A stretch of DNA of 64,000 nucleotides from Phyllobacterium endophyticum (GTDB taxonomy: Bacteria > Pseudomonadota > Alphaproteobacteria > Rhizobiales > Rhizobiaceae), in the NCBI RefSeq assembly GCF_003010935.1, contig NZ_PGGN01000002.1:682001-746000 (forward strand), read 5' to 3'. Made by a program: the position numbers and the translations under genes. Numbering within the stretch: position 1 is the first letter of the stretch; every line of letters begins with the position of its first letter. Below are positions 1,718-43,805 of the stretch, one piece after another. The notes beneath the pieces are model-generated. The model made no database searches. It was not told the origin of the DNA and saw nothing but the letters and a program-made list of their open reading frames with translations.

Positions 1718-3931
1718 ATGTCCACTGCCAATGCTGAACCCCGTGTTGAGACGCTTGGCGTGTCGGCTATCGATGCGCCAGCCACCCCGTTTTACATCCC
1801 GGCTGCGGAATCTCTCCAGGAGCGGCGTCCGCGAACCTTGAAACATGGCGATACGTTCGGGGTCTTCGATCACAATGGCGATGCCCGCGTTGGTTCTGGT
1901 ATGCCCGAGGGGCTTTTCCATCGTGATACCCGGCACTTGTCGCATTTATCCCTGAGCATAAACGGCGCGCGGCCAATGCTTCTGTCGTCGACGTTGCGCG
2001 ATGATAATGCAACGCTTACTTGCGACCTGACCAACCCCGACATTTTTGACGCCGGCAACCGCCTGACGCTTGCGCATGATCTGGTTCATATTCGCCGCTC
2101 GCGTTTTCTGTGGAAGGAGAGTTGCTTTGAGCGCCTGACCGTTCGCAATTTCAGCGACGAACCGCAGGACATCACTATCGCGATAGCTTTTGCAGCCGAT
2201 TTCAGCGATCTGTTTGAAGTACGCGGTACACAAAGGGTCCGCAAAGGCGAGCTTCATGCACCTGAGGTCGGCAAAGGCGACGTCGTGCTGAGCTATACCG
2301 GGCTGGACAAGCGGCAATGTACCACGAGACTGTCATTCGATCCGGCGCCCACGCGCCTCGACGGCCGTTCTGCGACATACCGGCTTGCGCTTGGCCCGCA
2401 TGAAGGCCAGTCGCTATTCATCGCGATCAATTGCAACCACCAGCCATCGGACATTCTAGTCCGGCGTGCATTCTACATCGCATTGCGCGATGCAAGGCGG
2501 GCATTGCGTTCATCCTCCTCCCGCGCGGCAGCGATCGTCACCTCCAACGACATCTTCAATGAAGTTGTGCGAAGAAGCATTTCAGATATCTACATGCTTA
2601 TAACCGATACTCCGGAGGGTCCCTACCCCTATGCCGGCATTCCGTGGTTCAGTGCTGCATTTGGCCGGGACGCGATCATCACAGCTCTTGAGATGTTGTG
2701 GGTCGATCCAGCAATTGCCCGCGGCGTGCTCGGTCATCTGGCGGCGAATCAGGCTGAGGTACTGGATCCGTCGGCAGACGCTGAGCCCGGCAAGATATTG
2801 CACGAGGTGCGCTATGGCGAGATGGCCGAACTGGGCGAAGTTCCATTCCGGCGTTACTATGGCAGTGTCGATTCAACACCCCTCTTCGTTATGCTTGCGG
2901 GGAAGTATCTTGGACGGACGGGTGACCTTGCGTCCATCAGGGAGCTTTGGCCCAGCATTGAAGCCGCGCTGGCGTGGATCGACGCCTATGGAGACCGCGA
3001 CGGCGATGGTTTTGTCGAGTATGGAAGGCGCACTGGCGAAGGTTTGATCAATCAGGGCTGGAAAGATAGCCACGACTCTATTTTCCACGCTGATGGCTCC
3101 CTTGCCCACGGCCCGATCGCGCTGGCTGAAGTTCAGGCCTACGTCTATGGCGCGTGGCAAGCCGCCGCTGACATCCTGCGTCAACTCGGTGAGCCTGGCC
3201 GTGCCGTCGCATTCGAGGCGCGGGCGGAGGTGCTGCGGCGCGCATTCGATGTGCAGTTTTTCGATGACGAACTCGGAACCTATGTTCTGGCGCTTGACGG
3301 TGACAAGCGCCAATGCCGAGTCCGTTCGTCCAATGCGGGACATGCTCTGTTTGCGGGACTCGCCTATCAGGAACGCGCTGCGTCCATCGTCGAGAGCTTG
3401 ATGGGGGCTTCCTCTTTCTCCGGGTGGGGCGTTCGGACGATTCCTTCCACAGAAGCCCGTTACAATCCCATGAGCTATCATAATGGTTCGGTTTGGCCGC
3501 ACGACAACGCGTTGATCGCGATGGGCATGGCGCAATATGGCTATAGACGTGAAGCAGCACGCATTTTCGAAGGTGTTTTTGCTGCCTCGACCTACATTGA
3601 TCTGCGCAGACTGCCTGAACTGATCTGCGGCTTTCCAAGAAAACGCGCACAGGGCCCGACCTTCTATCCGGTTGCCTGCGCGCCGCAGGCCTGGGCAGCC
3701 GCCGCACCTCTGGCGCTGATTCAGGCATGCGTCGGTTTGGAGTTTCATCCTGATGAACAGCAGATCAGCTTTGACGAACCCCTACTTCCGCCATCACTGA
3801 ATGAAGTTGTTTTCAACCGGCTGACTGCGGGGAAAGGATCTGCCAGTGTGTCACTGCGTCGTTCTGGCCAGCAGACCGTCGTTGATGTGCTCGAGCGGCA
3901 GGGCGACATGCGCGTCATGATCAAGGTCTGA
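1718..3931 (+). CDS. Amylo-alpha-1,6-glucosidase / glycogen debranching-type glycosidase
   Basis: 737-residue protein with an N-terminal beta-rich GDE_N-type domain (about 40-230, with HRDTRHLSHLSLSINGARP) and a C-terminal six-hairpin (alpha/alpha)6 barrel (about 280-690). Barrel signatures include AGIPWFSAAFGRDAI near 305 and GLINQGWKDSHDSIF near 440, the region that carries the acidic catalytic residues in related glucosidases. Rhizobia often encode such proteins beside glycosyltransferases, probably to trim alpha-glucans. No signal peptide is visible, so it is likely cytoplasmic. The start follows AAAGGGGAAACTC. Substrate is inferred from family only. Confidence 0.88.
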   Translation: MSTANAEPRVETLGVSAIDAPATPFYIPAAESLQERRPRTLKHGDTFGVFDHNGDARVGSGMPEGLFHRDTRHLSHLSLSINGARPMLLSSTLRDDNATLTCDLTNPDIFDAGNRLTLAHDLVHIRRSRFLWKESCFERLTVRNFSDEPQDITIAIAFAADFSDLFEVRGTQRVRKGELHAPEVGKGDVVLSYTGLDKRQCTTRLSFDPAPTRLDGRSATYRLALGPHEGQSLFIAINCNHQPSDILVRRAFYIALRDARRALRSSSSRAAAIVTSNDIFNEVVRRSISDIYMLITDTPEGPYPYAGIPWFSAAFGRDAIITALEMLWVDPAIARGVLGHLAANQAEVLDPSADAEPGKILHEVRYGEMAELGEVPFRRYYGSVDSTPLFVMLAGKYLGRTGDLASIRELWPSIEAALAWIDAYGDRDGDGFVEYGRRTGEGLINQGWKDSHDSIFHADGSLAHGPIALAEVQAYVYGAWQAAADILRQLGEPGRAVAFEARAEVLRRAFDVQFFDDELGTYVLALDGDKRQCRVRSSNAGHALFAGLAYQERAASIVESLMGASSFSGWGVRTIPSTEARYNPMSYHNGSVWPHDNALIAMGMAQYGYRREAARIFEGVFAASTYIDLRRLPELICGFPRKRAQGPTFYPVACAPQAWAAAAPLALIQACVGLEFHPDEQQISFDEPLLPPSLNEVVFNRLTAGKGSASVSLRRSGQQTVVDVLERQGDMRVMIKV

Positions 3932-6742: not shown

Positions 6743-8140
6743 TCAAAGGGTCAGCATATAGGCAACAAGCGCGTTCTTCTCGTCCTGCGTAAGCTTCACG
6801 CCAAGAACAAGATTGAAGTATTCGACCGTATCGGCAAGCGTCAGCAATCGCCCGTCGTGCAGGTAAGGCGGGGTATCCTTGATGCCTCTCAGCGTGAACG
6901 TCTTTATCGGCCCGTCAGGAATGGCGACCTGATCGTTGGCGCTATATCCGACGTTGTAGAAGCGCTCTAGCCTCAGATCATGCATGTTGTTATCGAGGAA
7001 CGACGTCTGCGGGATATGACACTCGCCGCAACGACCCTTCCCGAGGAACACGCGCTCCCCCATCAGCTCCTGTTCGCTCGCCTTGGCGGGGTCCAGCCTA
7101 CCCAGCGGGTCAAGTTTCGGAGCAGGCGGAAAATCGATGATATTCTGCATCTGCGCCATCATCGCGACCTGGTTTGGCCGATCCGGTAGGTTCACTCCCT
7201 TGCGCGTGGCACTGACGTGATCGCCGTTGAAGTAAGCAGTACGTTGTTCGAACTCGGTGAAGTCCTCCACTGAGCGCAGCGAGCGTTTCGATCCATGGAT
7301 CTGCTGGTTGAACATGCCGCGAAGACTCGTCGTGTCGAGGCGGAAACGTGATGCCTGCGGCCGGACGTCGGGTGTCAGGTGGAACGCCGCATTCGTGTTG
7401 AAGTTGGAATGACAGTCAAGGCACGCAACGCCCATGCTCTGCTGTGCGACCTTGCGATCTTCCGTCTGGTTGAATTCCTCCTGGGGAAACGGCGTCAGGA
7501 GAAGGCGCAGGCCTTCCATTTGAACCGGTGTGATAATGCCGTTCATGTACTCGTAAAAATTCCTGATTGTCAGGAGTTGCCCGCGTGAGACATCGCCAAG
7601 TTCCGGGTGTGTCGTAAGAAAGATCGGTGGGGGAAATTCTGGCGTCAGGTGATCTGGAAGGTCAAAGTCGACGTCGAAGCGCTTCAGATCACGCGCTTCC
7701 TGTTTGCCGATTTCGTCGATTTGCTTTTGAGGGAAAACCTGACCGCCAGTAGCCTGCTTCACATGCGGCAAAGGCTTGAAACCGTCAGGCAGAAGGTTCT
7801 TGTCGCGGATCTCATCCGGGCTCATGTCAGCCAGGGACTCCCACGTCACGCCATCCGGCAGTTTCACACGCACGCCCTCCTGCACTTTCTTCATGCCGCC
7901 CGACATGCTGACGTTGGACATGGCCTTGTCGGAGAGATCGTAGCGCTGGTTAAGAAGGGTTTGCTGGCGTTCCATGACCTTGGGCTTTTGCGCCTCGTCA
8001 TTTGCCTTCACGCTGGAGAAAGGTTGCGTAGGCAGCGGCCGGTAGGTCAGGTCGGGAGGAAGCGGATCCGAAAAAGCCGCCAGGCTGACGGCACTGGCGG
8101 TGACCAGACAGGAAAGAGCGATCAGTTTCAACGGGGACAT
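6743..8140 (-). CDS. Di-heme cytochrome c peroxidase/MauG-like protein
   Basis: 465-residue periplasmic protein with signal peptide MSPLKLIALSCLVTASAVSLAAF and two heme c attachment sites, CLDCH near 240 and CGECH near 372. This two-CxxCH layout with HGSKRS and HDGRLLTLADTVEYFN near the C-terminus is that of the bacterial cytochrome c peroxidase/MauG superfamily. The N-terminal 170 residues are an extension not seen in the classical 330-residue peroxidase. It may reduce peroxide or oxidise a partner protein; the substrate is open. First gene of a two-gene operon with DUF4142. Confidence 0.85.
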   Translation of the reverse strand: MSPLKLIALSCLVTASAVSLAAFSDPLPPDLTYRPLPTQPFSSVKANDEAQKPKVMERQQTLLNQRYDLSDKAMSNVSMSGGMKKVQEGVRVKLPDGVTWESLADMSPDEIRDKNLLPDGFKPLPHVKQATGGQVFPQKQIDEIGKQEARDLKRFDVDFDLPDHLTPEFPPPIFLTTHPELGDVSRGQLLTIRNFYEYMNGIITPVQMEGLRLLLTPFPQEEFNQTEDRKVAQQSMGVACLDCHSNFNTNAAFHLTPDVRPQASRFRLDTTSLRGMFNQQIHGSKRSLRSVEDFTEFEQRTAYFNGDHVSATRKGVNLPDRPNQVAMMAQMQNIIDFPPAPKLDPLGRLDPAKASEQELMGERVFLGKGRCGECHIPQTSFLDNNMHDLRLERFYNVGYSANDQVAIPDGPIKTFTLRGIKDTPPYLHDGRLLTLADTVEYFNLVLGVKLTQDEKNALVAYMLTL

Positions 8141-10859: not shown

Positions 10860-11738
10860 TCAACCTGCAAAGCGCGGCTCCGGAACTCCCTTGATACCAA
10901 GTCCCGTGATTGCAAAGAGACTGCCGCGTAAAACTCCGTCACCCGGGAATCTGGGAAGGGGCGGCTTTGCCATCGAAGTCACGTAGATGATGTCGAGTTC
11001 CGGGCCGCCGAACATGACACTCGTGACCTTTTTCACCGGCATATCAATGACGCGGTCCACCGTTCCATCGGGCCTGTAGCGGACAAGCTGGCCATCATAG
11101 ACTTGTGCATTCCAGAGGCAGCCCTCCGCGTCCACTGTCGAGCCGTCGGCAGCACCGCCTCTTGACGTATCGATCTTGGTAAACGTCCGGCGATTTGCAA
11201 CATTTCCCGTCGCCTGATCATAGTCATAGACCCAGATTTCGCCTGACCATGAATCGGCGAAATAGAACAGGCTGCCATCCGGGCTCCAGCATGGACCATT
11301 GGAAACAATGATCCCATCATCAAGTTTATGAACGCTGAGGTCAGGATCAACGCGATAAAGTGCGCCGTTCGGACCGCTCTCCATCGTGTCCATCGAGCCT
11401 GCGATGAACCTCCCCTGCTTGTCGACCTTGCCGTCATTGATGCGGTTTTCAGCTTGGTCCGGTTCGGGATCGTGGATAAGCTCGACATCGCCGGTCTTGA
11501 AATCCAGCAGATGAAATCCGCGTGCCAGGGATACGATGGCACCATTTCCGCCCTTGCGCAGCGCCATCGAGCCGATCTTCATCGGAACGTCCCAGGAGCG
11601 GATCTCACGCCCATCGGCGGTGGCGCGAAATACGCGGCCGTCGAAACTGTCGATCCAGTAGAGCCGCTGCTGTTCGACGTCCCAAAGCGGACCCTCGCCA
11701 AGCGTCGTCTTTACATCCACCACCACATCGATTTTCAT
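10860..11738 (-). CDS. SMP-30/gluconolactonase-type lactonase (second copy)
   Basis: 292-residue six-bladed beta-propeller of the SMP-30/regucalcin family, hydrolysing sugar lactones with a divalent metal. Family landmarks are LGEGPLWD near 13 (metal-binding glutamate), NDGKVDKQGRFIAGSMD near 100, NGPCWSPDGSLFYFADS near 145 and the final EPRFAG. The start at 11738 has GGGAGGAAAC upstream; the frame stays open further. It is a tandem paralogue of the 290-residue copy 10 bp upstream in the operon, with alignable motifs throughout. Last gene of the catabolic operon. Confidence 0.9.
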   Translation of the reverse strand: MKIDVVVDVKTTLGEGPLWDVEQQRLYWIDSFDGRVFRATADGREIRSWDVPMKIGSMALRKGGNGAIVSLARGFHLLDFKTGDVELIHDPEPDQAENRINDGKVDKQGRFIAGSMDTMESGPNGALYRVDPDLSVHKLDDGIIVSNGPCWSPDGSLFYFADSWSGEIWVYDYDQATGNVANRRTFTKIDTSRGGAADGSTVDAEGCLWNAQVYDGQLVRYRPDGTVDRVIDMPVKKVTSVMFGGPELDIIYVTSMAKPPLPRFPGDGVLRGSLFAITGLGIKGVPEPRFAG

Positions 11739-11748
11739 GTTTCCTCCC

Positions 11749-12621
11749 TCATCCCTTGAAACGCGGTTCCGGCAGACCACGCACGCCGAGTCCATAGATC
11801 GCAAACATGCAGCCCGCCTCGCGTTCGCGGTGATATTCATTGTTGAATGGCCGCGCCATTGATGTAACGAACGCGATGTCGAGATCAGGGCCGCCGAAGG
11901 TGATGCTCGTTGTCGATTGCACAGGCAGGCCGACAATCCGGTCAATCACACCATTTGGATCGAAGCGGATAAGCCGTCCGGAATAGACCTCGACACTCCA
12001 GACATATCCGTCCGCATCGACGGTCGCCCCGTCGGGATAGCCGCGCAATCCCTCAAAACTTGTGAACACGCGCCGCGACCCAACCGTGCCGGAACTGGTG
12101 TCATAGCTATACGCGTAGATCGCCTTCTTATGGCTGTCGGCAAAATAGAGCGTCGAACCATCGGGGCTGAAACATGGTCCATTCGAGCAGATTATGCCCG
12201 TATCCAGCGTGTGCAGAGAAAGGTCCGGGTCAAGACGAAAGAGCCTGCCTACCGGATCGCGCTCTTCGAAATCCATCGAACCGGCAATGAAGCGGCCTTG
12301 TCGGTCCACCTTTCCGTCATTGAGACGCGGGCGGAGCTCGCCCGGGTGGGTCTCATGCAAAAGTTCGACGCGGCCCGTTTCGAAATCCAGGGTATGAAAT
12401 CCATTTCTCAACGAGACGATGGCGCCTCCTTTTTCGCGCAACGCCAGCGAACCGACAGGCTCCGGCAATTTCCAGCTTTTGCGGTCGCCGCCTCTTGCAT
12501 CGCAGGAATAGACCGCAGGCGCATAGGAATCGATCCAGTATAGCCGTTGCTCCTCAACGTCCCAGAGCGGTCCCTCACCGAGCTGATTTCGATCTTCGCT
12601 GAAAACCTCTATGCGCAGCAT
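11749..12621 (-). CDS. SMP-30/gluconolactonase-type lactonase (first copy)
   Basis: 290-residue SMP-30 beta-propeller lactonase with LGEGPLWDVEEQRLYWIDS near 13-31, LNDGKVDRQGRFIAGSMD near 100, and CFSPDGSTLYFADS near 145. It would open an aldonolactone made by the sugar dehydrogenase of the operon. AGGAGGGCGAA precedes the ATG. Two lactonases in one operon suggest either two lactone stereoisomers or ring sizes, or that one copy has a different substrate. No signal peptide, so cytoplasmic. Confidence 0.9.
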   Translation of the reverse strand: MLRIEVFSEDRNQLGEGPLWDVEEQRLYWIDSYAPAVYSCDARGGDRKSWKLPEPVGSLALREKGGAIVSLRNGFHTLDFETGRVELLHETHPGELRPRLNDGKVDRQGRFIAGSMDFEERDPVGRLFRLDPDLSLHTLDTGIICSNGPCFSPDGSTLYFADSHKKAIYAYSYDTSSGTVGSRRVFTSFEGLRGYPDGATVDADGYVWSVEVYSGRLIRFDPNGVIDRIVGLPVQSTTSITFGGPDLDIAFVTSMARPFNNEYHREREAGCMFAIYGLGVRGLPEPRFKG

Positions 12622-12630
12622 TTCGCCCTC

Positions 12631-13593
12631 CTAGAACGCGACCTTGTCGCCGCCCTTGAGTTGCAGGATCGCGCGTGCCTCATCTGGGGTAGCCACTTCC
12701 ATGCCGAGCCCCTCGATGATCTTGCGTGCAAGCAGGACCTGATCCGCGTTCGACTTTGCCAGCTTGCCCTTACCTGCCCACAGACTGTCTTCGAGGCCAA
12801 CACGGATATTGCCGCCGAGTGCCGCTGCCTGAGCGGCAATGCGAAGCTGGCTCGATCCGGCGCCGAGCACCGACCAGCGATAACTGTCACCGAAAAGCCG
12901 GTCGGCCGTGCGCTTCATATGCGCGACGTCTTCGGGGTGCGTGCCGATTGCGCCGAGAAGCCCGAAAACCGACTGCACGAAGAATGGCGGCTTTACCAGA
13001 CCACGCTCGGCGAAATGCGCGAGGTTATAGAGATGCGCGATGTCGTAGCACTCGAACTCGAATCGCGTACCGTTGTCGTAGCAGGTCGCAAGAATATACT
13101 CGATGTCCTTGAAACTGTTGCGGAATACCAGATCGCGGGTAGCTTCGAGATGAGGTTTCTCCCAATCGAACTTGAACTCCTTGTATTTGTCGACAAGGTG
13201 ATAGAGCCCGAAATTGATCGAACCCATGTTGAGGGAAGCAACTTCCGGCTTGAATGTTGCTGCAGGCTTCACCCGTTCCTCGACCTTCATGTAAGGGCTG
13301 CCGCCGGTGGTGATGTTGATCGCCGCATTCGTGTTCTGCTTGATCCGCGGCAAAAACTTCGCGAATGCCTCCGGCGTTTGGTCCGGCTTGCCGGTTTCCG
13401 GATCGCGCGCGTGAAGATGCAGGATCGCAGCGCCAGCCTCGGCTGCGGCGAGCGCTTCCTTCGCAATCTCATCGGGCGTAATCGGCAGATAGGGCGACAT
13501 GGTCGGCGTATGGATCGCACCGGTAATTGCGCACGTTATGATGACCTTGCCCTTTGTGCTCGAACCGCTTGTCACCCGTGTCGTCTCGCTCAT
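12631..13593 (-). CDS. Beta-keto acid cleavage enzyme (BKACE, DUF849)
   Basis: 320-residue TIM-barrel enzyme of the BKACE family. Known members use acetyl-CoA to split a beta-keto acid into an acyl-CoA and acetoacetate, for example 3-keto-5-aminohexanoate or dehydrocarnitine. Zinc-site histidines are in ILHLHARDPETG (near 57), followed by INITTGGSPY (near 95). The later metal-site glutamate lies in VGLEDSLWAGKGKLAKSN (near 275). The start overlaps the dehydrogenase stop by four bases, so the two probably act in series: the dehydrogenase makes the 3-keto acid and this enzyme cleaves it. The substrate is not set by sequence alone. Confidence 0.9.
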   Translation of the reverse strand: MSETTRVTSGSSTKGKVIITCAITGAIHTPTMSPYLPITPDEIAKEALAAAEAGAAILHLHARDPETGKPDQTPEAFAKFLPRIKQNTNAAINITTGGSPYMKVEERVKPAATFKPEVASLNMGSINFGLYHLVDKYKEFKFDWEKPHLEATRDLVFRNSFKDIEYILATCYDNGTRFEFECYDIAHLYNLAHFAERGLVKPPFFVQSVFGLLGAIGTHPEDVAHMKRTADRLFGDSYRWSVLGAGSSQLRIAAQAAALGGNIRVGLEDSLWAGKGKLAKSNADQVLLARKIIEGLGMEVATPDEARAILQLKGGDKVAF

Positions 13594-14537
13594 TGTCCGA
13601 ACTCCTGCGTTGATTTCTTCTTGTGCGCCGCAAGCGCCATGAGGCGGCGATCACGCCAGACCTGACGCTCGACAAGCTTGTCTTCGGGCAGCCTTTCGCG
13701 CCGCCCGGCCTCCACGGTTTCGAGCACCTCGCCTGCCCAGTCGACGCGGTGCTGCATCTGCGGAAACAGCCGCTCGTAGATGATCTGATAGCGCTCGACA
13801 TAGTCGCGCACCCCGCCCGGCGCATTGAGGTCGATTGTCTCGAACGGCCCCATGAACGACCAGCGGAGCGCAAGCCCGTCACGGATGCCGATATCGACAT
13901 CTTCGACCGTCGCATACCCTTCCGCCACCAGCCGGAACGCTTCCTCCAGAAGAGCGCCCTGCATGCGGTTCATGATGAATCCGTCGAGTTCGCGCTTCAT
14001 GACCAGCGGCGCGTGGCCTGCAGCAACCAAAAACGCGCGGGTGCGTTCGACGACCTCGCCCGAGGTCCATGGCGCCGGAACAATCTCGGCGGCAGGAATG
14101 AGATACGGGGGATTGATCGGGTGAACGACGAGACAACGCTGCCGGTTTTTCAGATGCTCGGTGAATTTCGATGGCAGCAAGGCTGAAGTCGAACTGGCGA
14201 TAACGGCCGAAGCATCCGCTGCCTCATCGAGGAGCGAGAACACCTTGATCTTGGTGTCGAGATTTTCGGGCGTATTCTCCTGGATATGAAGCGCACCTTC
14301 CAGCGCCTTTGCGAGGTCCGTTTCGGCAACAATGCGCGACAATACGGTTTCGGGAGAATTGCCGTTGAGCAGGTCGTTCCGCTCAAGATCGGCGAGTACA
14401 TCGGCAATATAGCCGCGCGCTTTTGCGACTGCGTCTGGTGCCTGATCCCACAGGCTCACCTGATAGCCCGCGCGGGCAAAACTGATGGCCCAAGCCCTGC
14501 CGATGAAACCACTGCCGATGATCGCTGTCTTTTGCAT
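13590..14537 (-). CDS. 3-hydroxyacyl-CoA dehydrogenase family; lambda-crystallin/L-gulonate 3-dehydrogenase type
   Basis: 315 residues. The N-terminal Rossmann domain has IIGSGFIGRAWA at 5-16, the substrate loop SSTSALLPSKF lies near 125 and VVHPINPPYLIPAAEIVP near 147. The C-terminal domain carries LDGFIMNRMQGAL and LRWSFMGPFETIDLNAPGG. The HPxNPPYxIP and GPxETxxLN motifs are closest to lambda-crystallin/L-gulonate 3-dehydrogenase, less so to carnitine dehydrogenase (HPFNPVYLLP). It would oxidise the 3-hydroxyl of a sugar acid to a 3-keto acid using NAD. It overlaps the BKACE gene by 4 bp and lies 7 bp after the SDR gene. Confidence 0.87.
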   Translation of the reverse strand: MQKTAIIGSGFIGRAWAISFARAGYQVSLWDQAPDAVAKARGYIADVLADLERNDLLNGNSPETVLSRIVAETDLAKALEGALHIQENTPENLDTKIKVFSLLDEAADASAVIASSTSALLPSKFTEHLKNRQRCLVVHPINPPYLIPAAEIVPAPWTSGEVVERTRAFLVAAGHAPLVMKRELDGFIMNRMQGALLEEAFRLVAEGYATVEDVDIGIRDGLALRWSFMGPFETIDLNAPGGVRDYVERYQIIYERLFPQMQHRVDWAGEVLETVEAGRRERLPEDKLVERQVWRDRRLMALAAHKKKSTQEFGQ

Positions 14538-14544
14538 CGCTACC

Positions 14545-15351
14545 TCACAGGGTTTCTACATTGCCATCGACGCCAAGCGACTGGCCCGAGACATTGATAC
14601 CGGCATTCGAAAGCAGGAAGGCCACCATCGTCGCGACGTCGTAGGGGCTGACCATCCGTCGCAGCGAAACGTTCTCCAGATAGCGCTCTGTCATTTCCTC
14701 GTGCGAAATGCCCAATTGCTTGGCCCGGTTGCTAATGACGTTTTCAATGCGCGGCCCCTCGACAATGCCCGGTAGTATGGCGTTGACCCGGATCGCATGC
14801 GGCCCAAGCTCCTTGGCGAGGCTCTGGGTAAAGCCAATCACCCCAAACTTGGCCGCAGAATACGGCGTTCGAAAAGCATAACCGTGCTTGCCGGCGGCAG
14901 ATGACATATTGACGATCGAGCCGCCTCCGGAAGCCTTGAGCATGGGTACGGCGCGCCGCGCGCAAAGGAACTGCCCGGTCAGGCAGATGTCGATGCAACG
15001 GCGCCAATCCTCGGTACTGATCTCATCCACGCCGCCCGTCGGACCGGCTATGCCTGCATTGTTGATGAGCGCGTCGAGACCGCCAAGCGACGAGGCAAGT
15101 TCGTCGAACATGCGGTCGACATCGTCTTCACGCGATACGTCGGCCAGCGTCGCGTGGGCCGGTGAGATGGCGTTTGCCGCTTCGTCCAGCAGTGATTGGG
15201 ATATATCGCAAATCGCAACGCGGGCGCCGAGCCGCGACAGCGTCGCGGCAATTGCGTAGCCGATGCCTGAGGCCCCTGCGGTAACCAGTACCCTCTGGTC
15301 GCGCAGACCGCCCAGGAACTCTTCTGCAGATGCCGGAGCCATCCTGTTCAT
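14545..15351 (-). CDS. Short-chain dehydrogenase/reductase (sugar or sugar-acid dehydrogenase)
   Basis: 268-residue classical SDR with the cofactor motif VTAGASGIGYAIA (near 22), ADVSREDDV (near 70, acidic residue favouring NAD), NNAGIAG (near 95), the catalytic serine in NMSSAAGKHG and the YSAAK pair (near 165). The C-terminus ends in the typical VSGQSLGVDGN. The start at 15351 follows AAAGGGTGAATT. Within the operon it could make the lactone from the imported sugar, or oxidise the 3-position of a deoxyaldonate as an SDR does in the oxidative deoxyribonate pathway of Pseudomonas. The role is inference. Confidence 0.88.
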   Translation of the reverse strand: MNRMAPASAEEFLGGLRDQRVLVTAGASGIGYAIAATLSRLGARVAICDISQSLLDEAANAISPAHATLADVSREDDVDRMFDELASSLGGLDALINNAGIAGPTGGVDEISTEDWRRCIDICLTGQFLCARRAVPMLKASGGGSIVNMSSAAGKHGYAFRTPYSAAKFGVIGFTQSLAKELGPHAIRVNAILPGIVEGPRIENVISNRAKQLGISHEEMTERYLENVSLRRMVSPYDVATMVAFLLSNAGINVSGQSLGVDGNVETL

Positions 15352-15364
15352 AATTCACCCTTTC

Positions 15365-17434
15365 CTAAGCTCGCTTCTCACGAAGCGCCATAACCGCACC
15401 AAGCACCACAAGACCAAAGAGGATCGCGCGGGTTGCATAGGGCAACGTCGTTCCCGCCAGGAACATCTGCAGCGCGGTGAGCAGCAGGACCCCGCCCAAC
15501 ATGCCGAGATAGTGACCGCGTCCGCCGGTGATGAGCGCTCCACCGACCACGACCACGGCGATAGACGGCAGCAGATAATCGTCGCCCATGCCGAGACTTG
15601 CTTGTCCCGAGAACCCGGTGAGCAAGACCCCGACAAGCCCGGCGCAAAGGCCGGAAAGCACATAGACGAGAATGAGCGTTCGCCCGACGGCGATGCCTGA
15701 GAGCTGCGCCGCGCGTAGTCCATTGCCGATGCCGTAGACCCTGCGGCCGAAGGCTGTCCTGCCGAGCAACAACACGGCAGCGACGACGAACAGCACCATG
15801 AATGGGACGACGGGCGTTACAGTCCAGAGCTTGCCCGTCATGAACCAGCGAAGCATCGGCGAAGCAAATCCGGCTGGCGTTCCCTGCGAATAAACGAGGG
15901 CGAAACCCTGAAGAATGCCATTCATTGCCAGCGTCATCACGATGGGCGATATGCCGAGAACGACGATTCCTATGCCGTTGATAAGACCGATCACGCAGGC
16001 GATCAGAAGAACAGCGGGCAGCGCATAGATGAGAGCCGCGTCCGAACCGTTGACGATACCTGCGAGCAGGATGCCCGATATGCCGATGGTCCAGGGAACC
16101 GAGAGATCAAGGCCACCGGTCAGGATCACAGTACCCTGCCCCAGTGCCAGAATGGCGAGAAAAGTCGACAGGACAGCCAGCGAATTCCAGTAGGTTGGAT
16201 TGAGGATTGCCCGGCCTAGCCAGAATTGGGTTACGACGATGACGGCAATCAGGCACAGATAGGCCGGCAGTGCGTAGCGAATGGTTTCGCTGTTGCGGGA
16301 CAGGAACGATGCTGCCACTGCCGGCTTGCCTGCGGCAAGCGATGGCATCTTCATCCGCCGGTCAGTGCGGTCAAGCTGCGAGGGAAGCAGGCCCTGGCGC
16401 CATGCGCTGAACTGAGCCTGCGCGCCGCGCAATTGCCTGGCAAACGTCGAACTGTACGAAATGGATCCCGCCAGGACAGCAAGGATCAGGATGGTTCCTT
16501 CGGCGATGGTCGAATAATAGGCCGAGACATTCAAGACCAGCAGAATGTTCACCACCATCATCAGAATGTACGCACCGAAGACGGTGCCAAGCGGACCACC
16601 GCGTCCGCCGCCGAGACGCGTACCGCCAACGACCACGGCCGCGAACATTGACAGGAGCAGCGGATTGCCGACCAGTGGATCGGCGCTGCCGGTCTGTGCG
16701 CTGATGAAGACGCCAGCGAGGCCATAGCAGCCACCTGCGATGACATAGACCAGGAATTTGGTGATCTTGACCCTGACGCCAATGGCGGCAGCCGCGTCCG
16801 GATCGCTTCCGACCGCATAGATCGCCGTACCGAACCGCGTATTCTTCAGCCAGAGCCAGGCGAGAAGTACGACACCTATCACCACCAGCGGCATCGGCAG
16901 CCAGCCGGGTATCGCGTCACCGAGATAAAACGTTCCAAGGTCGGGAGCGACGAAACCGCCGGGCTTGTCCATCACCAGCAATGTCAGACCCTGGATGATG
17001 AACATCGTGGACAACGTGACCACGATGGGCTGCAACCGGAAGAAAGCGATGAAAACGCCGTTGAAAGCGCCGGTCAGCATGCCGACACCGATGCCTACGC
17101 ACGTCCAGTAGAGCACGCTCGTCTGCGCCGCAGCCGGGTCCATGCCCTGCGCGAGAACGACGTTGACCAGAGAAATCACCGCGCCTGCCGACAGGTCGAA
17201 CCCGCCAGAGAGAATGACGATCGTTTGGCCGATTGCCGCAATTGCCGACGTTGCGCCGCCGCTCGACAGGAAGGAAATATCGAAATAGCTGAGCGGTCCG
17301 CTGCTGATGAAGTCCACCACGGCAAGCAGGCCAAGAAAAACGCCGATGGCGATAAGAACGCTGCGCCGCTCGGGTGACATGCTGAACAGTGAAGTCCAAT
17401 GGCGGCTTGTTGCGCTTGAGGTCATCATTGTCAT
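15365..17434 (-). CDS. Sugar ABC transporter permease, two RbsC-like domains fused
   Basis: 689-residue inner-membrane protein, twice the usual 320-340. Both halves are complete RbsC-type permeases: residues about 25-335 (GGFDLSAGAVISLVNVVLAQG, then VGGTRLGGGRGGPLGTVFGAY) and about 380-685 (GGLDLSVPWTIGISGILLAG, then VGGALITGGRGHYLGMLGGVLL). A hydrophilic joint rich in R, Q and K lies near 335-370. RbsC normally dimerises, so the fusion would enforce a heterodimer. It overlaps the ATPase stop by 4 bp (ATGA). No frameshift or stop interrupts the joint. Confidence 0.92.
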   Translation of the reverse strand: MTMMTSSATSRHWTSLFSMSPERRSVLIAIGVFLGLLAVVDFISSGPLSYFDISFLSSGGATSAIAAIGQTIVILSGGFDLSAGAVISLVNVVLAQGMDPAAAQTSVLYWTCVGIGVGMLTGAFNGVFIAFFRLQPIVVTLSTMFIIQGLTLLVMDKPGGFVAPDLGTFYLGDAIPGWLPMPLVVIGVVLLAWLWLKNTRFGTAIYAVGSDPDAAAAIGVRVKITKFLVYVIAGGCYGLAGVFISAQTGSADPLVGNPLLLSMFAAVVVGGTRLGGGRGGPLGTVFGAYILMMVVNILLVLNVSAYYSTIAEGTILILAVLAGSISYSSTFARQLRGAQAQFSAWRQGLLPSQLDRTDRRMKMPSLAAGKPAVAASFLSRNSETIRYALPAYLCLIAVIVVTQFWLGRAILNPTYWNSLAVLSTFLAILALGQGTVILTGGLDLSVPWTIGISGILLAGIVNGSDAALIYALPAVLLIACVIGLINGIGIVVLGISPIVMTLAMNGILQGFALVYSQGTPAGFASPMLRWFMTGKLWTVTPVVPFMVLFVVAAVLLLGRTAFGRRVYGIGNGLRAAQLSGIAVGRTLILVYVLSGLCAGLVGVLLTGFSGQASLGMGDDYLLPSIAVVVVGGALITGGRGHYLGMLGGVLLLTALQMFLAGTTLPYATRAILFGLVVLGAVMALREKRA

Positions 17435-18972
17435 TCGGCAGCCTCTTTCGCTGCACTGTCATGGCCCAGTGCTGGCCGCATGATCGCCGCTTCCGTCAGT
17501 TGATCGCGCGAAAGCTGTGCGGCGATGCGCCCGTCATAGAGAACGAGAACCCTGTCGCACAGGTGAACGAGTTCGGGAATCTCGGTCGAGTGCAACAGTA
17601 TCGATCCGCCCGCATCCGTGAAATTGCGCATCATGACGTAGAGTTCATGCTTTGTGCCGACATCGATGCCGCGAGTGGGATCGAACAACAGGAGAATGCG
17701 GCTTTCGGCGACGAGCCATTTGGCTATGGCTATTTTCTGCTGGTTTCCGCCCGAAAAGGCTCCTGCCCTCGTCCACAGCGCTCGCTGGTCAATCTCGACG
17801 GTGCCGAAGGCGGCGCGTACGGCTTGGCGTTCAAGGTCGTTCTGGATCAATCCAAATCGTGAAAACCTGTCGATTACCGGCAGGGACGCATTGTGCGTTC
17901 CGCTCAGCTTGAGGAACAGGCCCTCCGTCTTTCGATCCTCCGGTACCAAGCCGATGGCGATATTGGGCTTGAGTGCATCGGAAGGCGAAGCAAAGCGAAC
18001 CCTGCGTCCATCGACAAGGACATCGCCCCGGATCACCTGCGTCATGCCGAAACAAGTCAGGAACAGATCGAGCTGGCCCATGCCCTGCAAGCCGGCAACG
18101 CCCAGGATCTCACCTTTTCGCAAATCGAAACTCGCGTCCCGCAGCTTGTGACCCGCTTGCAAGTTGCGGACACCCAGCACCGGAGCACCGAAGGCGGCTT
18201 CGCTTTTTGGCCTCGCGGGAAAAGTCTGGGCAATCGACCGTCCAACAATACTTTCAATGACTTGCGCGTCAGTGATGGAGGCAACCGAACAGGTGGTGAT
18301 GTGCCGGCCGTTGCGCAAAATGGTCAGCGTGTCGCAGAAGGCGCGCACTTCACGCATGCGGTGCGTGATGAAAACGATGGTCGTCCCCGCCGCTTTGAGT
18401 TTCGCAATGATGCTACCGAGCCATTCGACATCGCTGCCAGCAAGCGTCGACGTCGGCTCATCCAGCAGAAGAACCCGTGGTTTGCGATAAAGAGCCCGGG
18501 CGATCTCGATCTTCTGCTGAATGGCAAGGTCCAATGTGCCGACTTCGGCATCGAGATCCACTGAAAATTCGATATCCTGCAAATGCTGCTCGATAGCACG
18601 GCGCGCCGAAGCGCGGCGGACCAGTCCGGTGATCCCCATCGGCGCATAGGGCATCAGCATATTGTCGAGCACCGTCAAATCCTTGACCAGTGTCATTTCC
18701 TGGAACGCGGTCTGGACACCAAGCGTGTGCGCTGCCCGTGGTGCGTTCAGCGCCGCTCTTTGGCCGAATACCGTTATGTGTCCGTCGTCGGGACGCAGGA
18801 GTCCCGATAGTAATTTGACGATCGTCGACTTGCCGGCACCGTTTTCCCCCAGCAAGGCGTGGGTGCTTCCGGGCTGGATGCGGAAGGATACGCCATCCAC
18901 GGCAACCGTGGCGCCAAACGCCTTGCGAATATCGGTTACTTCAATGGCGGATTGTTCGAATGGAGAATTCAT
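17431..18972 (-). CDS. Sugar ABC transporter ATP-binding protein, RbsA type
   Basis: 513-residue duplicated ATPase. The first cassette has Walker A GENGAGKST near 36 and DEPTSTLAGSDVEWL near 165. The second starts with VLGVRNLQAGHKLRDASFDLRKGE near 265, with degenerate GLQGMGQLDL and the signature FSGGNQQKIAIAKWLV near 405. This is the RbsA/MglA layout for pentose or hexose importers. The frame extends to a TTG at 18990, but the ATG at 18972 fits the family N-terminus (EQSAIEVTDIRKAFG). Second gene of the operon. Confidence 0.9.
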   Translation of the reverse strand: MNSPFEQSAIEVTDIRKAFGATVAVDGVSFRIQPGSTHALLGENGAGKSTIVKLLSGLLRPDDGHITVFGQRAALNAPRAAHTLGVQTAFQEMTLVKDLTVLDNMLMPYAPMGITGLVRRASARRAIEQHLQDIEFSVDLDAEVGTLDLAIQQKIEIARALYRKPRVLLLDEPTSTLAGSDVEWLGSIIAKLKAAGTTIVFITHRMREVRAFCDTLTILRNGRHITTCSVASITDAQVIESIVGRSIAQTFPARPKSEAAFGAPVLGVRNLQAGHKLRDASFDLRKGEILGVAGLQGMGQLDLFLTCFGMTQVIRGDVLVDGRRVRFASPSDALKPNIAIGLVPEDRKTEGLFLKLSGTHNASLPVIDRFSRFGLIQNDLERQAVRAAFGTVEIDQRALWTRAGAFSGGNQQKIAIAKWLVAESRILLLFDPTRGIDVGTKHELYVMMRNFTDAGGSILLHSTEIPELVHLCDRVLVLYDGRIAAQLSRDQLTEAAIMRPALGHDSAAKEAAE

Positions 18973-19044
18973 GCCACCGGCCCTGCTCAATTCAACGAAA
19001 TAGCCGATTGCGCGGAGCGGCTATCGCTCCACGCACTCCGACCC

Positions 19045-20172
19045 TCAGTTTTCGGGTTGGCCGACCAATGCTGCGTTGAGACCGATCTCGGGTGTCTTGT
19101 CCGAGAAGATCGAGGCAAACCAGCCCGGATTGGAGACAATGGAGGGTTTGAACGCGTTGCAGCCATCCTTCATTTCCTGCCATGTCCCTTCCTGGCAGAG
19201 CTTGATGGTTTCGTTCGTAACCAGAGGCAGCGGCAACACCGTCTTCTTCGCCACGTCCTTGCCTTCGATCGCATCGACTGCGAGCTTCAGCGCGAGGGCG
19301 CCGGAATATGGCGGAGACGCATAGGAAATGCGTGGCGCGCCTAGCGGGGCATAGGGTGAAGTTGCGCCCTCGGCTTCGGTACCAGCGGGCAGCATCTGGA
19401 TACGGCCTCCGTTCGAACCTTCGCCTGCGCATGGGAGAAGCTGTTCCGGCTTCTTTCCTGCTTCAAGTTGCATGGAATTGGCTGTAAAGCAGCCGACCTG
19501 CATCCAAAGCCCGTTGATATCGTCCCAATTGCGGGTCGCCAGTATTTTCGAGAGTTCTGTGCGCGCGACCGCCTGGCTCCACATGCCTACCGCTTCACCG
19601 ACAATCTTTATGTCGGGATGTTTGGCGAATACTTCCTTCGCAGCCTTGGTGCGCAAATTGTCGACGGACGTGCCGGGCACGCCGGTTATCGCGATGATAT
19701 TGCCCTTGCCATTGAGCTTCTTGACCAGCCATTCCGCGGTCACGCGGCCGGCTTCTTCCTGATCGATCGCTATGTTGTAGGCGCATGGTTCGGTGATCTC
19801 GCCATCATAGGCGAAAACCTTGACGCCCTTGTCACAGGCGTTTTTGACAACCTGGTTGAGCGCGGTCGGTGAAATCGGAAAAATGACTATGGCTTCCGCC
19901 CCGGCTTGCACCATGGCGTTGATCTGCTGGATCTGGCGCTGCGCATTGGGTCCGGCAACCTGTACCTGCAGGTCGATCTTGTCCGCGTAGTTCTTGTGAG
20001 CGGCCATTGCCTTGACCATGTTGGCGGCTTCGGCCTGCCAGTCATTGCCGATGAAGCTCATGCTGAGAAAAATCTTGTGCTTTTCCGCTGCGTCGGCGTG
20101 GCTGATCATAGCCATGCTTGACGCAAGACAAGCGAAGGCGGTTGCGCGCCGGATGGTCGTTGCAATTCCCAT
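19045..20172 (-). CDS. Periplasmic sugar-binding protein, RbsB/Peripla_BP_4 type
   Basis: 375-residue substrate-binding protein with a signal peptide ending near SHADA (residue 28). The fold follows RbsB: FLSMSFIGNDWQAEAANMVKAMA (40-62), VQVAGPNAQRQIQQINAMVQAGAEAIVIFP (70-100), VFAYDGEI near 125 and the hinge ITGVPGTSVDNLRTKAAKEVF near 165. It is about 60 residues longer than E. coli RbsB. It begins the minus-strand operon after GGGAGGAACTATA. The ligand is probably a monosaccharide or a related polyol or acid. Confidence 0.9.
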   Translation of the reverse strand: MGIATTIRRATAFACLASSMAMISHADAAEKHKIFLSMSFIGNDWQAEAANMVKAMAAHKNYADKIDLQVQVAGPNAQRQIQQINAMVQAGAEAIVIFPISPTALNQVVKNACDKGVKVFAYDGEITEPCAYNIAIDQEEAGRVTAEWLVKKLNGKGNIIAITGVPGTSVDNLRTKAAKEVFAKHPDIKIVGEAVGMWSQAVARTELSKILATRNWDDINGLWMQVGCFTANSMQLEAGKKPEQLLPCAGEGSNGGRIQMLPAGTEAEGATSPYAPLGAPRISYASPPYSGALALKLAVDAIEGKDVAKKTVLPLPLVTNETIKLCQEGTWQEMKDGCNAFKPSIVSNPGWFASIFSDKTPEIGLNAALVGQPEN

Positions 20173-20257
20173 TATAGTTCCTCCCTCACACAGGAAAACA
20201 TCTCCGAGCGGGCTCCTCTTCCCTCTCGTCGTTCCTTGGCATCAACCGTACCAGCAT

Positions 20258-20272
20258 TTGATCAAAGATCAA
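20258..20272. promoter_or_regulatory. Candidate GntR operator (TTGATC-N3-GATCAA)
   Basis: A perfect 6+6 inverted repeat around AAA in the intergenic region between the sugar operon and the divergent GntR gene. Another GATC half-site lies at about 20286. FCD-type GntR proteins bind short palindromes of this size near their own genes, so this is the best operator candidate. Confidence 0.5.
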
Positions 20273-20385: not shown

Positions 20386-21066
20386 ATGGCTGAAGCCGGG
20401 TACAGGAGACCAGGTGTTGAGATTCTCCCGCTTTCCAAGGAGACGCTGCAGGACCGTGTCTATCGCCAGATCGCGAGCCTGATCCTCGAGGGAGGCATCG
20501 TCCCGGGCGAAATGGTCCCGGTGCAAAGTCTTGCGGATGCCTTTGGTGTAAGCGCGATGCCGGTCCGGGAAGCCTTGCGGCGCCTGACGGCGGCCAATGC
20601 TTTGACAGTGGTATCCGGGCGCTCCATCGGGATACCACGCTTGAGCCGTGCCAAACTGACTGATCTGCGGAACGTGCGCATCGAAATCGAAGCGCTTGCC
20701 GGCAAATGGGCTGCCGAGCGCATCGAGGAGAAGGAAATAGAGGAGCTTCGTTCACTTCTCAAAGACCTCGAGGAGGCAAACGCGTCGGGCGACATCAAGT
20801 CATATCTTCGTGCAAACTACGCGTTCCATTTCTCGATCTATCGGGCAGCAGGGTCGGAAAGCATACTCAATATAATAGAGAACCTTTGGCTGCAGGTCAG
20901 TCCATACTTCAATATGCTGCATGATTCAGGCAATTACACAAAGGCGAACGAACACCATCAGTCGATGCTGGCTGCACTTTGCGCGCACGATGGCAAGGCG
21001 ATAGAAAAAGCCGTAAAGGCGGATATTGATGCCGCTTATGATGTACTTGTGGAGTTGGTCACCTGA
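20386..21066 (+). CDS. GntR-family transcriptional regulator (FadR/FCD subfamily)
   Basis: 226 residues. The winged helix (about 15-85) contains QDRVYRQIASLILEGGIVPGEMV and LADAFGVSAMPVREALRRL, the typical GntR recognition helix. The FCD ligand domain (about 90-220) contains RIEIEALAGKWAAERI, ANYAFHFSIYRAAG and NEHHQSMLAALCAHD, with the aspartate and histidines that bind metal in this subfamily. It is divergent from the sugar operon, so it most likely represses that operon and responds to a pathway acid. AAAAGGTGAACA precedes the ATG. Confidence 0.92.
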   Translation: MAEAGYRRPGVEILPLSKETLQDRVYRQIASLILEGGIVPGEMVPVQSLADAFGVSAMPVREALRRLTAANALTVVSGRSIGIPRLSRAKLTDLRNVRIEIEALAGKWAAERIEEKEIEELRSLLKDLEEANASGDIKSYLRANYAFHFSIYRAAGSESILNIIENLWLQVSPYFNMLHDSGNYTKANEHHQSMLAALCAHDGKAIEKAVKADIDAAYDVLVELVT

Positions 21067-43440: not shown

Positions 43441-43805
43441 GCAGTACCCCCTACGGCATAAACGGGTGAGGAATTGCCTTGGAAATCTTCGCAATTCCGC
43501 GATCAGGCTAGAGATATTGGCGAAAGGGAGGCTAAATTGTGTTTCTGACTTACGCAACCGAAGGTTTAACTTATACATCATCAAATTTACTGGTGTGGTA
43601 AATCTGTCGCAGTAACATACGTCGGCTTATTTTAATCTTATCGCTCGTCAAGGAAACACGCGTGGTAAGTCGCGGCAGATGCCCCCGGCGGTAGAGGCGT
43701 TAGTCAGTCTTTGGGTGCTTTTTGTCGTTCATTCTTCCTGAACAGCATTTGACTGGTCGTGGAATTCCGTTGTAATCGAAAATCACGACTGCCGGAGAGT
43801 GCAAG
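43441..43805. other. Intergenic region with two inverted repeats (autotransporter leader)
   Basis: 365 bases without a gene. GGAATTGC (43470) and GCAATTCC (43491) pair across a 13-base spacer in the autotransporter leader. ATTTAC (43585) and GTAAAT (43598) form a second dyad that could be a regulator site. The autotransporter promoter should be here, but no canonical boxes stand out. Nothing else seen. Confidence 0.4.

Follow-up and report, generated by a model that had tools for sequence, protein, structure and literature searches.

Gene content of the operon

A 64,000-nucleotide stretch of the genome of the plant-associated soil bacterium Phyllobacterium endophyticum (positions 682,001 to 746,000 of contig NZ_PGGN01000002.1; hereafter the window, to which coordinates refer unless another locus is named) carries on its minus strand, from 20172 to 10860, an eight-gene operon that, judging from the homology of its products, we lean towards reading as a system for the import and degradation of a 2-deoxypentonate or 2-deoxypentonolactone, a group of which D-2-deoxyribonate is the best-known member. 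The genes encode, in order, a sugar-binding protein, an ATPase, a fused permease, a short-chain dehydrogenase/reductase (SDR), a 3HCDH-type dehydrogenase (hereafter HCDH), a beta-keto acid cleavage enzyme (BKACE) and two SMP-30 proteins. An earlier note on this DNA had placed all of these parts in one operon, and family profile searches recovered each of them on the minus strand at the positions it gave. The frames of HCDH and BKACE overlap by exactly 4 bp (13590-13593), again as that note had it, and those of the ATPase and permease likewise by 4 bp; the remaining intergenic gaps measure 7-13 nt, except for 72 nt following the binding-protein gene. The reported lack of a kinase or aldolase also held, with none among the eight genes by Pfam and NCBIfam. 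No sugar 1-dehydrogenase was recognised among the eight genes, a molybdenum deoxyribose dehydrogenase not having been searched for.

The importer comprises a CUT2-type sugar-binding protein of the Peripla_BP_4 family (19045-20172, PF13407 at 6.6e-49) with an N terminus that, judged by eye, resembles a signal peptide, an RbsA/XylG-type sugar ABC importer ATPase with two ABC domains (17431-18972, PF00005 in two stretches), and a 689-amino-acid permease that joins two BPD_transp_2 domains in one chain (15365-17434, PF02653 in two stretches). By sequence, the nearest solved relative of the binding protein is 4pe6 (97.5 bits), and comparison with solved structures gave no close relative and no clue to the ligand; the ATPase scores under the NF010069 equivalog cut-off (414.2 bits versus 699). 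Downstream, also on the minus strand, lie the SDR, a probable 2-deoxypentonate 3-dehydrogenase whose closest solved relative is 5unl (14545-15351, 275 bits); HCDH, a lambda-crystallin/L-gulonate-3-dehydrogenase-type hydroxyacid dehydrogenase (13590-14537, PF02737 and PF00725); BKACE (12631-13593, PF05853 at 358.9 bits, and NF053538 at 546.7 versus a cut-off of 430); and the SMP-30 lactonases SMP1 (11749-12621, PF08450 at 267 bits) and SMP2, a probable 2-deoxypentonolactonase (10860-11738, PF08450 at 281.3 bits). SMP1 and SMP2 are 54% identical, and both score as SMP-30/gluconolactonase family members and contain GEGP, RxNDGK and SNGP stretches, which we take to be metal-site stretches by reference to the metal ligands of regucalcin. 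A GntR/FCD regulator is encoded divergently on the plus strand (20386-21066, PF00392 and PF07729).

Conservation of the gene set

Related loci, numbered with the prefix L, were gathered by genome-contig searches. The 80 loci fetched by BKACE (L003-L082) are the best kept among the matches listed. Loci from L083 on were fetched by HCDH, SDR or SMP-30, which introduces a bias that L003-L082 alone escape; the architecture counts omit L001, L002, L137 and L144-L146, and four duplicate loci were removed. The nearest named relatives among the matches listed belong to Phyllobacterium (L003-L006), with BKACEs 98-99% identical to that of the window. Within 10 kb of BKACE, an SDR (at least 41% identity) and an HCDH were found together in 52 of the best 80 loci, an SDR without an HCDH in three (L031, L074 and L075), and an HCDH without an SDR in a further three (L039, L047 and L052, the last of which is truncated where its contig ends). 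Under stricter counting rules, SDR, HCDH, SMP-30 and the same importer occur together in 37 of these 80 loci. When all fetches are pooled, 63 of the 130 distinct loci have the importer, accompanied by two SMP-30 genes in 23 and by one in 40. The association of these genes exceeds chance.

A search at the level of the order recovered HCDH, at E values no higher than 1e-60, in 75 of 397 genomes, and one at the level of the class recovered it at 1e-75 in 39 of 385, with the organism's own genome counted in both. A BKACE lies within 4 kb of HCDH in 43 of the 75 loci fetched by HCDH. In L101 the SDR, HCDH and both SMP-30 genes are present, with no BKACE between HCDH and SMP1. A separate group of loci (L053, L058, L060, L061, L062, L068, L069, L072 and L079) combines BKACEs about 78-85% identical to that of the window with a PF04199 cyclase-family protein, assigned by Pfam on the L072 copy and by sequence cluster in the other eight; several of these loci also contain Gfo/Idh/MocA or branched-chain-type importer genes. 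They point to a different BKACE pathway.

Kinship to deoxyribonate clusters

In P. simiae, Price 2019 (PMC6365646) describes deoxyribonate use by way of an SDR and a BKACE, together with a lactonase, a GntR regulator, a pair of MFS importers and a glycerate kinase; K. michiganensis has a CoA-linked version, whose lactonase shares 70% identity with the putative deoxyribonolactonase of P. simiae (PMC6365646). Two of the fetched loci have these gene sets, matched by gene content only. A proteobacterial cluster, L140, has the P. simiae content in the order GntR-SDR-BKACE-SMP-30-MFS-MFS; its SDR, BKACE and lactonase are 48.8%, 60.2% and 69.7% identical to the SDR, BKACE and SMP2 of the window, and its BKACE also belongs to NF053538 (542.8 bits). 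A K. pneumoniae plasmid cluster, L131, encodes a CoA-synthetase-like enzyme, a CoA-transferase, FabG, a thiolase, two MFS proteins, an SMP-30 protein 64.7% identical to SMP2 and a glycerate kinase, a set that matches the one reported for K. michiganensis. An ISKpn1-type transposase (L131:6122-7485) lies between the thiolase and the first MFS gene of this cluster.

Trees were built from hand-picked loci at a coverage of at least 75%. In the SDR tree, whose bootstrap is not fully settled, 49 core-type SDRs, including those of the window and L140, form one clade (support 100/100), and other kinds of SDR found near BKACE or HCDH, such as those of L061, L068, L072 and L156, fall outside it; the row for L041, a wrong-frame sequence that stands apart from the clade on a very long branch, was disregarded. 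In the SMP-30 tree, the L131 and L140 lactonases lie inside the SMP2 fork (28 rows, 90/91), and SMP1 forms a separate paralogue clade (13 rows, 100/100) that is absent from many relatives. The shared clade with the L140 SDR and the kinship of SMP2 to the L140 and Klebsiella lactonases suggest that the pathway is largely a recognised one and that the SDR is better read as a 3-dehydrogenase than as a sugar 1-dehydrogenase converting sugar to lactone.

A putative operator, TTTGATCAAA, with a TGATCA core lies at 20257-20266 (no strand assigned), and this core is found in 52 of 57 intergenic regions between the GntR and sugar-binding protein genes (51 of 56 after dropping one duplicate), versus an average of 2.6 and at most 7 in 100 base shuffles, a contrast that, the genomes being related, speaks of conservation and not of probability. 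The same core is present in the motif GTGATCAC proposed in Price 2019 (PMC6365646), and TGTGATCACA occurs near the GntR genes of L139, L140, L135 and L141.

The window operon appears to resemble the P. simiae pathway in its SDR, which shares a clade with that of a cluster of P. simiae gene content, in its NF053538 BKACE, in an SMP-30 lactonase apparently of the same group, in a GntR regulator with a TGATCA-core motif, and in having a glycerate kinase and a CoA-transferase pair, here encoded elsewhere in the genome. It differs in importing through a CUT2 ABC system with a fused permease where P. simiae has two MFS proteins, and in adding a second lactonase and the lambda-crystallin-type dehydrogenase, whose gene sits between those for the SDR and BKACE. 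With the Klebsiella cluster it shares a related lactonase and a glycerate kinase, the latter encoded within the cluster in Klebsiella; that cluster differs in using an acyl-CoA route (CoA-synthetase and thiolase) and MFS import, and the part of L131 examined contains neither BKACE nor HCDH. No description of the ABC-importer/HCDH variant was found in the titles or abstract openings listed from open-licence literature.

Two dehydrogenases beside one BKACE

What is new in the operon is its lambda-crystallin-type dehydrogenase. This enzyme belongs to the family of L-gulonate 3-dehydrogenase/lambda-crystallin (3ado, 242 bits), with the HPxNPP and NRxQ stretches aligned, a likeness that is one of homology only, and unlike that protein it has a BKACE as its neighbour in a bacterial operon. 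While HCDH passes the broad NF004783 cut-off for 3-hydroxyacyl-CoA dehydrogenases (477.4 versus 347), it falls under the carnitine 3-dehydrogenase equivalog cut-off (185.1 versus 592). The same genome encodes a separate pair (L002), likewise a 3HCDH-type dehydrogenase beside a BKACE, whose dehydrogenase exceeds the latter cut-off (602.3 versus 592) and whose members share about 31-33% identity with the window pair. A carnitine function for the window operon was rejected on the strength of this separate carnitine-type pair and the low score of the window HCDH.

An SDR without an HCDH stands beside BKACE in L139 and L140 as well as in the three loci of this kind counted above. Since there are loci with either the SDR alone or HCDH alone beside BKACE, either enzyme can probably make the beta-keto acid. 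Enzymes of the 3HCDH family act on L-type 3-hydroxy groups, and also on C3 of L-gulonate, whereas FabG-like SDRs act on D-type groups; C3 of 2-deoxy-D-ribonate is of the D type. This family stereochemistry suggests a division of labour in which the SDR would serve 2-deoxy-D-ribonate and HCDH the opposite C3 epimer.

Substrate length and downstream steps

The window BKACE matches BKACE15 of P. denitrificans at 445 bits, and its Glu181 and Arg264 (numbering mapped by hand from the alignment) match residues named for that enzyme, so that the window protein retains both the catalytic Glu and the Arg that had been proposed earlier. BKACE15 accepts beta-ketopentanoate, beta-ketohexanoate, 5-hydroxy-beta-ketohexanoate and 3,5-dioxohexanoate, and its physiological role is given as unknown in the passages of PMC11961710 used here; PMC12133276 and PMC4922564 serve only as background on BKACE groups. 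The NCBIfam name, 3,5-dioxohexanoate acetone transferase, was rejected as a guide to the true substrate, as NF053538 also holds the L140 BKACE and BKACE15 lacks a known physiological role. Aldonates other than 2-deoxy forms were considered unlikely substrates because BKACE moves an acetyl unit (PMC6365646).

Evidence on carbon number comes from the neighbours of related operons. A glycerate kinase gene lies downstream of the operon on Agrobacterium plasmid pQ15_94_2 (L083) and on Rhizobium ruizarguesonis plasmid pRlX3 (L084), and beside the HCDH, BKACE and SMP-30 genes of a Rhizobiaceae metagenome-assembled genome (L039), making three of 134 loci with a BKACE of at least 58% identity (two by tblastn, L084 by annotation). 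These neighbours are moderate evidence for glyceryl-CoA as a product, and with it for a C5 2-deoxypentonate as the substrate. The organism's own genome encodes a glycerate kinase (67%) that is not linked to the operon, as well as an adjacent pair of CoA-transferase genes.

Hydrolysis of glyceryl-CoA is listed as an unknown step in the part of GapMind 2022 (PMC9007349) cited here. In two of the 134 loci, an ECH_2 gene lies beside the pathway genes, next to the glycerate kinase in L083 (L083:16676-17758) and next to SMP-30 and SDR genes in the Ancylobacter locus L057 (L057:13631-14668), and both products pass the 3-hydroxyisobutyryl-CoA hydrolase cut-off of 274 (425.9 and 371.2, respectively). 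We therefore put forward this 3-hydroxyisobutyryl-CoA-hydrolase-type protein as a candidate glyceryl-CoA hydrolase. In L084 the glycerate kinase downstream of the operon stands in one gene run with LarA, LarC, adenine nucleotide alpha hydrolase and LarB genes (L084:14377-18414); the LarA homologue scores under the lactate racemase cut-off (340 versus 460), and thus may act on another 2-hydroxy acid.

Other features of the window

Outside the operon, the window encodes a large autotransporter with autochaperone and beta-barrel domains (40768-43584, minus strand), a glycogen-debranching-like protein with GDE_N_bis and MGH1-like domains (1718-3931, plus strand) that adjoins a glycosyltransferase (429-1676), and a 465-amino-acid reading frame (6743-8140, minus strand) with no Pfam match at 1e-8.

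Discussion

In the pathway that we propose, the CUT2-type ABC importer would bring in the lactone, acid or sugar, and the SMP-30 lactonases would open the lactone; as the operon has no recognised sugar 1-dehydrogenase, import of the lactone or acid, or an enzyme encoded elsewhere, would be needed. A 3-dehydrogenase would then oxidise C3 to yield a 2-deoxy-3-ketopentonate, with the SDR predicted to act where the C3 hydroxyl is of the D type (2-deoxy-D-ribonate, for example) and the lambda-crystallin-type enzyme where it is of the L type (2-deoxy-D-xylonate or 2-deoxy-L-ribonate), such that both C3 epimers would converge on one BKACE. With acetyl-CoA, BKACE would give glyceryl-CoA and acetoacetate, the latter handled by a CoA-transferase, and a hydrolase and a glycerate kinase encoded outside the operon would feed glycerate into glycolysis. 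The full scheme, a stereo-convergent pathway in which two unrelated dehydrogenases of opposite handedness and two lactonases lead both C3 epimers to one 3-keto acid and one BKACE, together with an ECH_2-type glyceryl-CoA hydrolase, is a tentative proposal that we place on the doubtful side of possible.

A number of observations weigh against a deoxypentonate pathway of this form. Neither dehydrogenase lies within 10 kb in 22 of the best 80 BKACE loci, several of them near contig ends, indicating that close BKACEs serve other pathways, and in 11 of the 130 distinct loci a branched-chain-amino-acid-type importer, SDR, HCDH and BKACE occur without SMP-30. From the HCDH side, 32 of the 75 loci have no BKACE within 4 kb, among them L101 and five loci whose HCDH is at least 60% identical (L095, L097, L099, L108 and L151), and given such BKACE-free relatives HCDH may have other roles. 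Kinship to P. simiae and K. michiganensis is traced via L140 and L131, with the match by gene content already noted; the SDR identity to L140 is low, gntR is divergent in L140, and the SMP2 fork also holds lactonases of L132 and L133, on long branches and in unrelated gene settings. Linked glycerate kinases are rare, with about 0.5 of 134 expected by chance (assuming one such kinase per 5.5-Mb genome, as found in the organism's own), L083 and L084 may be one event, and L039 has another kind of SDR and no CUT2 importer. The organism's own genome also encodes two DeoC-family proteins, the D/L split between the dehydrogenases rests on the general stereospecificity of their families, and the L084 LarA homologue, if it were a glycerate racemase as we hypothesize, would suggest an L-configured C4.

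The same genes could be ordered differently. SDRs that oxidise sugars to lactones are common, a sugar-type importer and lactonases suit a free sugar as the starting compound, and the presence of both SDR and HCDH in 52 of the best 80 BKACE loci is what two sequential steps require; the SDR would then turn imported sugar into lactone, SMP-30 would open it, and the lambda-crystallin-type enzyme would be the sole 3-dehydrogenase. We judge this order unlikely, given the loci with SDR and BKACE and no nearby HCDH (three of the best 80, and L139 and L140), the clade that the SDR shares with the L140 SDR, and 16 of the 75 HCDH-fetched loci (two on short contigs) that have SDR and BKACE but lack a lactonase within 6 kb, a setting in which a step that forms a lactone is harder to explain. 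The conserved SDR/HCDH pair near one BKACE in those 52 loci, and the opposite C3 handedness expected of the two families, would also fit a joint inversion of C3, one enzyme oxidising and the other reducing, in place of parallel entries. Such an inversion would be superfluous should BKACE act on the 3-keto acid itself, and a few loci have just one of the two dehydrogenases near BKACE, making it very improbable.

A 3HCDH enzyme with a BKACE follows carnitine logic, and the Pfam name and the NF004783 score of HCDH agree with a carnitine-type or 3-hydroxyacyl-CoA operon; the separate pair in this genome takes the carnitine score that the window enzyme lacks, lactonases and a sugar importer are ill-suited to carnitine, and we give this reading almost no credence. 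A longer substrate, a C6 2-deoxy or 2,6-dideoxy sugar acid cleaved by the same chemistry to a four-carbon hydroxyacyl-CoA and acetoacetate, would accord with the in vitro activity of the solved BKACE15 on C6 beta-keto acids (PMC11961710), with an NCBIfam family named after 3,5-dioxohexanoate, and with a binding protein that has no close solved relative. Glycerate kinase genes next to related gene sets, and a lactonase akin to those of deoxyribonate-type clusters, indicate C5 instead, and we hold a C6 substrate to be quite unlikely.

Taken together, the comparisons make it on balance probable that the operon encodes a form of the oxidative deoxypentonate route that relies on an ABC importer and includes a further dehydrogenase, presumably of opposite handedness. 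The route that the earlier note offered as possibly unrecognised would thus largely be the published oxidative 2-deoxyribonate pathway in its SDR, BKACE and SMP2, with the ABC-importer/HCDH combination as the new part. The order it proposed from lactone through aldonate and 3-keto acid to BKACE cleavage into acyl-CoA and acetoacetate stands as the best reading, as does its guess of a 2-deoxy substrate. The note had set the operon apart from the Pseudomonas SDR/BKACE route on account of its L-gulonate-type dehydrogenase. This enzyme appears to be an addition to the SDR and not a replacement for it, the operon having its own SDR in the L140 clade, and the note's step from sugar to lactone loses its obvious gene once the SDR is read as a 3-dehydrogenase.

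2'-Deoxyribonic acid arises from deoxyribonolactone that forms in DNA (PMC10182090). If the full stereo-convergent scheme held, 2-deoxypentonates other than the DNA-derived D-erythro form would serve as genuine carbon sources in soils and plant habitats. If the ABC-importer reading is correct, the oxidative deoxyribose/deoxyribonate route would extend to many Hyphomicrobiales, Bordetella and other proteobacteria that have the ABC importer. It would also provide gene candidates for glyceryl-CoA hydrolysis, the step listed as unknown by GapMind (PMC9007349), and would give the lambda-crystallin-type dehydrogenase a testable role.

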